Origin: Bacillota bacterium | GTDB taxonomy: Bacteria; Bacillota; Clostridia; Christensenellales; UBA1242 | Assembly: GCA_009784555.1 (NCBI GenBank) | Contig: WRBO01000013.1 | Coordinates: forward strand, 1 to 37,969 | Length of the DNA stretch: 37,969 nt | Reading direction: 5' to 3' | In this document: piece after piece, positions 31,362 through 36,574 of the stretch | How positions within the stretch are numbered: position 1 is the first letter of the stretch | Layout of the letters: each line of letters begins with the position of its first letter | The notes under the pieces: generated by a model | Databases searched by the model: none | What the model was told of the DNA's origin: nothing | The model's input: only the letters and a program-made list of their open reading frames with translations | Program-made: the position numbers and the translations under genes

Positions 31362-31438
31362 GGGGCTATAGCTCATCTGGCTAGAGCGCCTGCCTTGCAA
31401 GCAGGAGGTGATCGGTTCGACTCCGATTAGCTCCACCA
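31362..31438 (+). tRNA. tRNA-Ala (anticodon UGC), integration target
   Basis: A 77-nt tRNA with encoded CCA. Acceptor GGGGCTA pairs with TAGCTCC, the anticodon loop is CTTGCAA and the T arm is TCGG TTCGACT CCGA. Its last nine bases, GCTCCACCA, are the att core of the element that follows, so the gene stays intact after integration. Confidence 0.97.
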
Positions 31439-32985
31439 ACACATTTCATATTAGAACCGCCTATGGTGGTTCTTTTGTGTTGGGGGTTTTGGGTGCAAAC
31501 TGCGTTGTAATCAATTCCATTCTCGGCTAGTGCATTTTTGAGTTCGTCAAGCGTTATCGGTTTTTCGTTGTCGGTGTTGTAAAACACAAACATACCGCCA
31601 TCGCCAACCCATACGGAATTGATAAGTCCATGAATAATACGCTTGCGATAGTTCGGGTCGGCTATATCGCCATCAACAAACTTTTGTAGGTGCTTTTTAT
31701 AATCATCTTTTGTCTTGGGTATGGCTTGCAAAAATTTAAGTTTCATTAACTCTTGATTTAGGTCGTTCTTCTGCAATTCAAGGTCTTGACTGCGTTGATT
31801 GATTTTCGCTTGCATTGTCGCACCTTGCGAGTTCATGGCAAGGTCGATTAACTTTTCAATTTCTCGGTCTATGTTGTCAAGCCGTCTTTCGTACTCCTTT
31901 ATCTTTTCAAGCGTGATATTCTTTTCGTGAAACTCGGCTAACTTTTGACTTGCTCGGTCAAGGTTTTCGGGTTTGGATATAAACTCCTCTGTGTCGGCTA
32001 CTACGGCGGTTTCTAGGTCTGTTTTGTTCTCGTTCTGCTTGTTGCATGATTTGTATTTGTAACGGCTCTTGCAAGCGTAGTATGTCTTCTTCTCTCCGTT
32101 TCGTGCCGTTCCCGATATTCCGTACATGGTTGAACCATCGTGCAAACAATAGATTTTGCCAGTTAATTCATATTCAACTTTGGCTTTGCCTTTTGCGGAT
32201 AGGCGTTTCGTTTTCGCAAGCATTTCTTGCACCTTTGCGAAAGTCACATCGTCAACGATTTGCGGGAATATGGTCGTCAAGATTTCGCCATATTTCATGG
32301 CTTGCCCTATGTAGTTAATGTTGCTCATAAAGTTGCTTTGTATATTGTTCGTTCCAAATGCTTTCTTGCCTTTGGTCTTTGTGCCTTTTGCGTTTAACTC
32401 TCGCACAATTTGCTTTTTGGTTTTGCCGTTAGCGTAGTCAGTAAAAATCTTTCTCACAATTTCCGCTTGCTCATCGTCAATGTGAACCTTGCGTTCTATG
32501 ACTTTATATCCGTATGGAAGATTACCACCTGTCCATAAACCTTTTTCAACATTCATTCGGTTGCCACGCTTGATTTTTTGCGATAGTTCTGCAGAATAAA
32601 ATTGGTTGTACCCTTCAATAACACTTTCCAATAAAATGCCTTCGGGGGTGTTACTGATTAACTCTGTTGCACTTACAACCGCAACGCCATTGCTTTTCAA
32701 CTCTTTCTTGTAGACTACGCTTTCGTATTTGTCACGGCTGAAACGGTCTAGCTTGTAGACAAGAATAATCGAAAACGGTTTTTCCTTGCTCTTTGCGTGG
32801 TTAATCATTTTTTGAAACTCTGGGCGTTTGTCGTGCGTTCCGCTGATGGCTCTGTCTATGTATTCGCCTACAATGGCTATATTGGCTCTCTGGGCGTATT
32901 CTTGGCAAATCTTGAGTTGCCCCTCGATTGATTGCTCTGTTTGTCTTTCACTACTGTACCTTGCGTAAATGACTGCTTTTTCCAT
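31381..32985 (-). CDS. Large serine recombinase (integrase), tail provided by tRNA antisense
   Basis: A 534-residue site-specific recombinase. The resolvase catalytic domain (about 1-150) has YARYSSERQ with S11 as the likely nucleophile, plus YKLDRFSRD. The Recombinase domain (about 160-265) includes PYGYKVIERKVHIDDEQAEI. A zinc-ribbon-like segment with YCLHDGSTM and YYACKSRYKYKSCNK follows, then a coiled coil (about 350-430). The last 19 or so codons, from the core on (GGANRSRTDHLLLARQAL), are read antisense through tRNA-Ala and stop at 31381. In the excised circle the same frame would run across attP into 36707-36638 and give a different 23-codon tail. The start at 32985 has GGAG upstream. 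This enzyme is expected to catalyse the attP x attB reaction seen here. Confidence 0.92.
   Translation of the reverse strand: MEKAVIYARYSSERQTEQSIEGQLKICQEYAQRANIAIVGEYIDRAISGTHDKRPEFQKMINHAKSKEKPFSIILVYKLDRFSRDKYESVVYKKELKSNGVAVVSATELISNTPEGILLESVIEGYNQFYSAELSQKIKRGNRMNVEKGLWTGGNLPYGYKVIERKVHIDDEQAEIVRKIFTDYANGKTKKQIVRELNAKGTKTKGKKAFGTNNIQSNFMSNINYIGQAMKYGEILTTIFPQIVDDVTFAKVQEMLAKTKRLSAKGKAKVEYELTGKIYCLHDGSTMYGISGTARNGEKKTYYACKSRYKYKSCNKQNENKTDLETAVVADTEEFISKPENLDRASQKLAEFHEKNITLEKIKEYERRLDNIDREIEKLIDLAMNSQGATMQAKINQRSQDLELQKNDLNQELMKLKFLQAIPKTKDDYKKHLQKFVDGDIADPNYRKRIIHGLINSVWVGDGGMFVFYNTDNEKPITLDELKNALAENGIDYNAVCTQNPQHKRTTIGGSNMKCVGGANRSRTDHLLLARQAL
31430..31461 (+). other. attL: core plus P' arm
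   Basis: The core GCTCCACCA (31430-31438) is followed by the 20-bp arm CATTTCATATTAGAACCGCC (31442-31461). This arm is the inverse complement, with 18 of 20 matches, of the arm at attR. Confidence 0.88.
31453..31477 (+). terminator. Element-borne terminator for tRNA-Ala
   Basis: AGAACCGCC, loop TAT, GGTGGTTCT, then TTTT. The 9-bp hairpin (one G-T pair) starts 15 nt after the tRNA and overlaps the P' arm, so it probably takes over from the native terminator displaced to 36728. Confidence 0.75.
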
Positions 32986-33069: not shown

Positions 33070-33245
33070 CTCCGTCGGGCATCGGGTATGGGGAACATAA
33101 ATAAAAATGCACACGGCGGAAAAGCCGTCAAGGGCGGACTATTTTTCTAATATCATTTTTTGACTGTTGTCCGTGCATTTTACCCTTGACGGCTTTTTTG
33201 CCGTGTGCTACAAAAATTGTTCCCCATACCCGATGACCGACGGAG
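33070..33245. repeat. Nested 176-bp inverted repeat
   Basis: Within the gene-free stretch 32986-33348, four pairs of arms nest in order: CTCCGTCGG/CCGACGGAG, the 18 bases CATCGGGTATGGGGAACA with their complement, GCACACGGC/GCCGTGTGC, and AGCCGTCAAGGG/CCCTTGACGGCT, with a further CGGAC/GTCCG inside. Alternative local hairpins ACGGC-GCCGT exist in each half (33113-33128 and 33189-33204). The function is unknown; candidates are a transfer or replication origin, or a structured RNA. The remaining bases of this stretch show nothing else. Confidence 0.85.
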
Positions 33246-33682: not shown

Positions 33683-33727
33683 GTCAGTAGGGGGGGCTAT
33701 ATAACTACGTCTAGCCCCCCTACTGAC
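33683..33727. repeat. Hairpin 1 with ACTACGTCTAG loop
   Basis: GTCAGTAGGGGGGGCTA pairs with TAGCCCCCCTACTGAC, one G bulged. The loop contains ACTACGTC and leads into TAG. It is followed by the short direct repeat CTGACAACTGACAAAA. Confidence 0.7.
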
Positions 33728-33830
33728 AACTGACAAAACCCACTATATTTTTATTCTTTAGCCCCCATAACACAAAACACAACATTGTAATTCTATTTAT
33801 ATCCCCCCCTAGCACATAGCACAAAACAAT

Positions 33831-33868
33831 GTTACGCAGGGCGTGTACTACGTCTAGCCCTGCGTAAC
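33831..33868. repeat. Hairpin 2 with ACTACGTCTAG loop
   Basis: GTTACGCAGGG (33831-33841) pairs perfectly with CCCTGCGTAAC (33858-33868). The loop again holds ACTACGTCTAG although the stem differs from hairpin 1. It is followed by TAACACATAGCACAAAAA. On the minus strand it may also act as a terminator for xre, since it stands 15 nt after its stop, but the T tract is weak. Confidence 0.7.
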
Positions 33869-33882
33869 ACATAGCACAAAAA

Positions 33883-34806: not shown

Positions 34807-35925
34807 ATGGCAAAAAATGAAGAAAAAGAACTGTTTACCGAATATGATATAACAACATCTGCACGGGACTTTTCGTTATCAAATATCGTAGATTTAATTG
34901 ATAGCGGTCAAATTGAAATTCCATTGTTCCAAAGAGAATATGTTTGGAAGGATAAAGATGCCTCAAAGTTGATTGATTCTCTCATACTGAATTTGCCCAT
35001 TCCAGAAGTATTTTTGTTTATGGATGAACAAGATTCTAAACTGAAAGTTGTTGATGGTCAGCAGCGATTGATGTCTGTATATTTTTATATAAAGCAACGT
35101 TTTCCTAAAGACGATATGGCTAGAACGAGTATGCACAATCTAGTTAATTACCAAACAACGCTTTTGCAAAATGCAATACAGAATGAAAAATTGTTCAAAT
35201 TATTCCGGTTGACGTTCGATGAAGATTATCAGTCAAAGTATGAAAAAAAACTTTTCAGCGAACTACCTGAAGATTTGCAAATGAAATTAAAATTACGTCG
35301 TTCTATTAGAGCTCAGGTTCTACGTCAAAACAAACCCGATGATGGCGGCTCTGCGATGTTTGAAGTATTCAACCGCTTAAATACCACAAGTAGACCACTT
35401 AATGCACAAGAAGTACGTGCAAGTCTTTTCTATTGTGACTTTTATGTAATGATGCAGAAATTAAACGGCAATTCTCTATGGCGACAATTACAAGGGAAAG
35501 AGAGCACCGCATTACGTGGTAAAGATATAGAACACATACTTACCGCTTTTGCGTTTTTGGAAAATGTCGATATGTACAATGGTAAAAAGAAACAATTCCT
35601 AAATAAGTATTCACAGGCAAGTAAAAAATTCGATGCACCAAAAATCAAAAAATTAGAAACTCTCTTTGTCGATTTTCTCAATGCCTATGTAGAAGTATAT
35701 AAGCAAAACTTGCCACAAAACAAATTCAGTATTCTAGAGTTTGAAACTATTTTTACCATACTCTGCGAAGATGCCTATAAGAATAACGGCGACATAATCG
35801 TAGACATCAACAAAATAAAAGCGTTGCTTTCCGATACTACTTTCAAATCTTGTGTTAGCAAGGACACATCTACTGTAGCCAACGTTGAACGAAAATTAGA
35901 CATAGCAAGAAAGATACTGCTTTGA
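34807..35925 (+). CDS. DUF262-domain protein (GmrS-like N-terminal domain only)
   Basis: A 372-residue cytoplasmic protein. The DUF262 domain (about 20-230) has FQREYVW at 41-47 and the signature VVDGQQRL with D83-R87, the nucleotide-handling ParB/sulfiredoxin-like fold known from GmrSD-type restriction and related defence proteins. The helical C-terminal half has no HNH (DUF1524) nuclease motif, so it probably senses or hydrolyses a nucleotide and needs another protein as effector. The HEPN gene 10 nt downstream fits that role. There is no Shine-Dalgarno sequence: a consensus promoter ends 5 nt before the ATG, so the mRNA is probably leaderless. No other Met occurs until residue 72. Confidence 0.88.
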   Translation: MAKNEEKELFTEYDITTSARDFSLSNIVDLIDSGQIEIPLFQREYVWKDKDASKLIDSLILNLPIPEVFLFMDEQDSKLKVVDGQQRLMSVYFYIKQRFPKDDMARTSMHNLVNYQTTLLQNAIQNEKLFKLFRLTFDEDYQSKYEKKLFSELPEDLQMKLKLRRSIRAQVLRQNKPDDGGSAMFEVFNRLNTTSRPLNAQEVRASLFYCDFYVMMQKLNGNSLWRQLQGKESTALRGKDIEHILTAFAFLENVDMYNGKKKQFLNKYSQASKKFDAPKIKKLETLFVDFLNAYVEVYKQNLPQNKFSILEFETIFTILCEDAYKNNGDIIVDINKIKALLSDTTFKSCVSKDTSTVANVERKLDIARKILL

Positions 35926-35935
35926 TAGGGGTGGT

Positions 35936-36574
35936 ATGACTGATTTCACAAATGTCAATGCACAATTAAGAGAGATTGCAAGTTATAACAATTCAACACC
36001 TTGCACATCTTTGACAGACCATTTACCAAAGTTGTGTGTGATTATTGTTGTTACGGAATTTGAAAAATGTATCAAAAATGCTATTGAAAATTTTCTTTCA
36101 AAACCAAAATCAGGCATGGTTGGTTTAATTGAAACATTGGAAGCCACAAGCAGAAAAGATATTGATTTTATCTATGGAAGATTTTTCCCTGTGGCGAAGC
36201 GTGGCACAATATACTCATGCGCAAGAGATTTTTTCAAGTTAATGGGAGGAAGATTTTCTAAAATATCGGAAACGACATCGTTTGGAAGATTCTCCAAAAA
36301 TCAAGAAACGCTGTATACAAGAGAGCTATCAAAGGTTAGATTGTCTCCAACAAATAGAATTGATATTGAAAACGAATTAAACATAGTGCGAGTAACGAAT
36401 TTTGACGAAGCACAAGACCTTTTTTTAGAATTAAAAAATTTAAGGAACGATGTTGCACATGAATATATTCTTGACGGTTCATACACAGTCGATAAAGTAA
36501 TCGAAAAATATCATAGGGCGAAACTTTTTGTTGGTGCGTTGGAAAAAACATTTAAGTTTTATACCTTGCCTTAA
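35936..36574 (+). CDS. HEPN-domain ribonuclease candidate
   Basis: A 212-residue, all-helical protein with the HEPN catalytic motif R-x4-H as R170-NDVA-H175 in LKNLRNDVAHEYI. It resembles the MAE_28990-like HEPN group, which has been noted next to DUF262 genes; this assignment is from memory. HEPN proteins of this kind act as RNases in toxin-antitoxin and abortive-infection systems. The gene starts 10 nt after the DUF262 stop with AGGGGTGG before the ATG and is surely co-transcribed. It is the last gene of the element; 109 nt remain to the right attachment arm. The likely role is an RNA-cleaving effector controlled by the DUF262 protein. Confidence 0.8.
   Translation: MTDFTNVNAQLREIASYNNSTPCTSLTDHLPKLCVIIVVTEFEKCIKNAIENFLSKPKSGMVGLIETLEATSRKDIDFIYGRFFPVAKRGTIYSCARDFFKLMGGRFSKISETTSFGRFSKNQETLYTRELSKVRLSPTNRIDIENELNIVRVTNFDEAQDLFLELKNLRNDVAHEYILDGSYTVDKVIEKYHRAKLFVGALEKTFKFYTLP

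Follow-up and report, generated by a model that had tools for sequence, protein, structure and literature searches.

The window, as we call the whole stretch of 37,969 nucleotides analysed here, is the entire contig C13, one of 29 that make up an incomplete genome of 1.12 Mb, and ends with that contig at position 37969. It carries, on the minus strand, the gene for a large serine recombinase (31381–32985; Resolvase, Recombinase and Zn_ribbon_recom domains), the C-terminus of which overlaps tRNA-Ala(TGC) at 31362–31438; this overlapped tRNA is likely the attachment site of a genomic island. The 3' end of the tRNA faces the island. The integrase gene starts 85 nt from a long nested palindrome (33070–33245), and beyond the palindrome lie two plus-strand cargo genes, one for a DUF262/GmrSD_N protein (34807–35925; NsnA and PD-T4-2_A models) and one for a HEPN (RiboL-PSP) protein (35936–36574), which together (34807–36574) likely form a two-gene antiphage system of the NsnA/PD-T4-2_A-like kind. 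Neither a relaxase nor a Rep gene is seen on the window contig, though either may lie past 37969, where it stops; a related serine-integrase element, that of G047:C1, does encode a rolling-circle Rep. Direct repeats that would convincingly mark the island ends are likewise not found within this contig-bounded window.

Two perfect 13-bp hairpins at 33683–33727 and 33830–33869, with related loops ...ACTACGTCTA, lie within degenerate 34-nt direct repeats, and one of the two loops includes TACTACG. This pair (33683–33869) may be an oriT or a double-strand origin; its CTACGTCTA loops are absent from the other elements checked. Elsewhere in the same genome we find a second copy of the palindrome family (L125 1501–1656; G000:C1:3601–3756), upstream of a tyrosine integrase, and a CRESS-type Rep (L076; G000:C4:7856–8107).

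Structure of the palindrome

The long nested palindrome claimed by the first-pass annotation is borne out by folding. The 28-nt outer arms (33070–33097 and 33218–33245) are 96% complementary and pair over 9 + 18 bp, the 26-nt inner arms (33109–33134 and 33183–33208) are 92% complementary, and a 5-bp apical stem (33135–33139/33169–33173) closes the rod, leaving a conserved, unpaired 3' bulge, TGCATTTTA (33174–33182). Read on the plus strand, this bulge adjoins a −35-like TTGACG (33186–33191) that is fully paired in the predicted fold, followed 17 nt on by an extended −10-like TGC-TACAAA (33206–33214), the hexamer of which is predicted to be unpaired (P 0.79–0.99). The minimum free energy of the plus-strand RNA is −111.2 kcal/mol, compared to −47.7 ± 4.2 kcal/mol for shuffled sequences (z = −15.2), a value reached by 0 of 200 shuffles; the minus-strand RNA gives z = −14.4, and DNA folding parameters return the identical rod for the plus strand at −67.5 kcal/mol.

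The ACGGC/GCCGT hairpins put forward as alternative folds of each half are indeed present in the window, but at about −4.4 and −4.3 kcal/mol they are far weaker than the rod, and they are not conserved: a local hairpin of −2 kcal/mol or below is possible in the 5' arm of 13 and the 3' arm of 5 of 35 copies. Local hairpins are not a family feature, and we therefore set aside two exclusive local folds as the function. A scan of the palindrome region for ordinary double-stranded DNA promoters gives no more matches than shuffled sequences.

Copies in related bacteria and their neighbours

The palindrome is not unique to the window's element. BLASTN over 148 related genomes returned short matches in three genomes of the same genus which, on inspection, are complete nested palindromes built on the plan of the window's copy: an outer arm, an AT-rich 5' spacer, an inner arm ending in CAAGGG and the loop, then the bulge TGCATTTTA, CCCTTG with the second inner arm, TGTGC-TAC, a short 3' loop and the second outer arm. 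A covariance model of six copies (R1) finds relatives in 12 of 118 genomes of the same taxonomic family, and one of ten copies (R2) finds them in 19 of 396 genomes of the order (E ≤ 0.001) and 13 of 391 of the class (E ≤ 1e-4), at one or a few palindromes per genome; one copy resides on a plasmid of Pusillibacter faecalis (Clostridia). The family is thus spread across related bacteria. Compared with plasmids and phages by BLASTN, the palindrome had chance matches only, and a search of viral contigs for the serine recombinase gave no match.

The stem is maintained by compensatory change in these relatives. In a 27-copy alignment of the inner stem, 90.2% of cells are paired and 22 of 26 pairs show double substitutions, with a covariation score of 0.490 against 0.157 ± 0.014 for shuffled alignments and at most 0.146 when the partner is slid by 1–3 columns; in the outer arms the letters vary among copies while complementarity is retained in most. 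Arms diverging without compensation, the outcome that would have counted against the original proposal, did not occur.

The readable contexts of these copies are mobile elements. Serine recombinases flank the palindrome on its 5' side in the window and in G003:C1, G007:C47, G047:C1, G047:C26, G047:C29, G176:C21, G176:C32, G026:C5, G003:C3 and G315:C15, mostly beginning within about 360 nt of it, and a tyrosine integrase takes this place in G000:C1, the window's own genome; each of these 12 integrases is encoded antisense to the palindrome strand (two-sided p = 0.0005). Several elements encode rolling-circle Reps, either Viral_Rep or REP_ORF2/G2P. Five copies reside in cassettes with a CRESS-type Rep (assigned to PF02407 in the three cassettes tested), most of them with a tyrosine integrase as well: small integrated cassettes are found in G002, G003 and G047 and a remnant in G004, and here the palindrome is on the rep-sense strand. 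A REP_ORF2/G2P Rep lies near the palindrome in G060 and in a 7.3-kb element of G047:C1 (L080 7367–14728), which is bounded by 16-bp direct repeats and holds a serine integrase, the palindrome, the Rep, and a HaeIII methylase and nuclease; restriction-modification genes are often the cargo of palindrome elements. The same integrase, palindrome and Rep as in L080 recur in G047:C4 (L074). Several other copies lie near sigma-factor genes of Tn916-like ICEs and have an additional 5'-side hairpin. Such a hairpin (e.g., GAGGGCGCAAGCGG..TTTGCGCCCTCTTG) is seen in L093, L097, L098, L099, L101, L102, L148, L151 and L157, several of which adjoin a Tn916-like sigma-factor gene.

Promoter-like letters and likeness to single-stranded promoters

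We then counted the letters of 35 copies, which include a few near-duplicates and were anchored at the 3' arm. The −35 reads TT in 35/35, G in 33/35, A in 26/35 and C in 27/35, and the −35 to −10 spacing is 16–18 nt in all 35, a conservation that is partly ascertained by the model and a register that is the best of three spacings. The extended −10 (TGnTA) begins at the internal loop, with TGn in 30/35 copies and TA at the start of the −10 in 32/35 (3/35 for the mirror position in the opposite arm), and the −10 scores above its mirror position (Wilcoxon p = 0.002). The T at −7 is not conserved (6/35), such that the −10 reads TACnnA rather than TATAAT. In eleven class-level copies that lie outside all models the architecture is intact, nearly all carry the signature, and one has TATAAT.

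This arrangement resembles that of Frpo of the F plasmid, which rebuilds −10 and −35 elements in folded single-stranded DNA, recruits RNA polymerase and drives early expression of leading genes after transfer (PMC9849209; PMC11541004); Frpo1, Frpo2 and the ssi sites of ColIb-P9 are taken here from PMC9849209, citing Masai & Arai 1997, and from PMC11541004. As in those sites, an imperfect hairpin would restore −35 and −10 elements about 17 nt apart, the palindrome's −10 being only partly canonical, and an asymmetric 3' bulge like GTGCATTTxACCC adjoins the −35. The short bulge GTGCATTTTACCC beside the −35 is also present in the proven single-stranded promoters of F (Frpo1 and Frpo2) and ColIb-P9 (the ssb promoter), and the shared motif sits at the same 3' bulge in the Frpo and ColIb-P9 folds. 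Scored with a 20-nt family matrix, the T-strand site upstream of ssb in ColIb-P9 comes first among 186,760 sequence windows and Frpo2 of F 8th among 198,280, joint ranks matched by 1 of 1000 column-permuted matrices. The motif TGCAT[CT]T[CT]ACCC has a single occurrence in each plasmid, within Frpo1 in F and at this same ssb site in ColIb-P9. The leading gene of F is found to the 5' side of its hairpin, in antisense orientation to the T-strand; the integrase has this placement relative to the palindrome strand, a match to F if that strand is the one transferred.

There are differences: the palindrome has TTGAC and an extended −10 where Frpo has TGGACA, the outer arms differ, and the palindrome lies beside integrase or Rep genes in Clostridia-type integrative elements while Frpo and ssi lie in ssb/psi leading regions. 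An R2 profile search gives no match to F, M13, pUB110, pTA1060 or pC194, and nhmmer finds no link to Frpo, M13 or the classic sso's (E > 1). The link to the F and ColIb-P9 promoters is one of short motif and shape, above chance; since profile methods do not join the families, we do not claim common ancestry.

Single-strand origins are a second point of comparison. RNA polymerase acting at folded sso's primes rolling-circle plasmids, and the sso's of ICEBs1 and such plasmids, like the palindrome, belong to Gram-positive mobile elements; they are orientation-specific, in many cases use RNA polymerase for priming, and can depend on structure over sequence (PMC4595007), as we propose for the palindrome. 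Those of the sso1 type differ in having three stem-loops (PMC4595007), and R2 has no match on pTA1060, pUB110 or pC194. Rolling-circle sso's lie on the displaced strand, normally the rep-sense one; the CRESS-Rep copies are likewise on the rep-sense strand, here predicted to be the one displaced. The five copies in CRESS-type Rep cassettes recall the integrated pCRESS plasmids described in PMC6668415, the part of which considered here mentions no such palindrome structure; the palindrome differs from what is described there in occurring also in islands that have a serine integrase and either REP_ORF2/G2P or no visible Rep.

A candidate single-stranded promoter and its alternatives

These features lead us to propose that the palindrome probably serves, in single-stranded DNA, as a promoter and primer site in the manner of Frpo, ssi and sso. 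The plus strand of the excised element, predicted to be the active one, would fold into the rod when single-stranded in transfer or rolling-circle replication, and the 3' inner arm would then offer the −35 (TTGACG) as duplex and an extended −10, 17 nt further along, pre-melted in the internal loop, a promoter geometry that would be absent from double-stranded DNA. Host RNA polymerase would start at the hairpin with the 5' arm as template, the 5' inner arm serving for the −35 and spacer and the 5' outer arm for the downstream part, and would continue past the base of the hairpin into the 5' flank. The resulting RNA could prime the complementary strand and, in the window, would be sense for the serine integrase, such that entry into or replication in a cell would prime the second strand and switch on the integrase at once. 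From sequence we infer that the island passes through single-stranded DNA. In elements with a CRESS Rep the flank on the 5' side runs antisense to rep, so that the proposal would there cover priming but not the expression of the closest gene.

Two alternatives are about equally improbable. One is a primase-type initiation site, in which the hairpin positions DnaG (or PriA) and an unpaired trinucleotide at the stem foot is the start. Firmicute primases start at CTA/TTA, and most copies do carry a conserved, unpaired CTA/TTA (YTA) at the inner-stem foot, but this model, which we regard as unlikely, leaves unexplained the stem TTGAC, the 16–18 nt spacing, TGn, and the −35-adjacent bulge held in common with the RNA-polymerase-dependent Frpo. 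The other is a nicking origin, either a double-strand origin or an oriT, at which a Rep or relaxase supplied in cis or in trans would cut. We give it the same low standing: the palindrome does lie beside Rep genes, and some of its elements show no relaxase, but nicking origins are Rep-specific, the same structure occurs at ICE-like loci and with two Rep families that are unrelated to each other (PF02407 and PF23343), and long compensated outer arms are unnecessary for nicking. A primer made by polymerase would require no element protein and so fits sites beside unrelated Reps and without a visible Rep; a host factor, RNA polymerase, fits this distribution better than a particular helper protein does. 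What survives of the first-pass idea of an origin used by helper proteins is thus a function in replication or expression at a single-stranded stage, our best reading, and not a nicking origin tied to one helper protein.

That annotation had also raised a regulatory RNA. A structured RNA transcribed from double-stranded DNA, e.g., one that regulates the integrase, would account for the very stable, covarying fold and has terminator-like stems near the palindrome in its favour, but leaves the −35/−10 pattern unexplained. The promoter-like boxes lie inside the structure, and a transcript from them would omit the 5' arm. An Rfam search finds no family above the gathering score, the palindrome associates with many unrelated genes, and we judge this reading rather less probable still than the previous two. 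A mobile foldback repeat (MITE or REP-like) hitchhiking on islands would agree with the dispersal of copies over several genomes but is very improbable given their fixed orientation, close spacing to integrase or Rep genes, low number per genome, divergent sequences with retained structure, and readable contexts in mobile elements.

A single-stranded promoter and primer site would be a Frpo/sso-like element in a new setting, the principle itself being known. Within the literature found, gene-driving single-stranded promoters have been demonstrated only in enterobacterial conjugative plasmids, and that principle would be widely extended by a structural family which, in another phylum, occurs in integrase islands, CRESS-Rep cassettes and Tn916-like elements. 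We hold it conceivable, at somewhat under even chances, that the palindromes form a large, unnamed family of single-stranded promoters of Clostridia-type integrative elements, with a Frpo-like −35-adjacent bulge, that activates the integrase from incoming single-stranded DNA. If so, a palindrome would mark islands as passing through single-stranded DNA even without a visible relaxase, would offer a sequence signature for the single strand where an element's transfer route is not established, and would predict, as a rule open to testing, that integrases belong to the earliest genes to be expressed.
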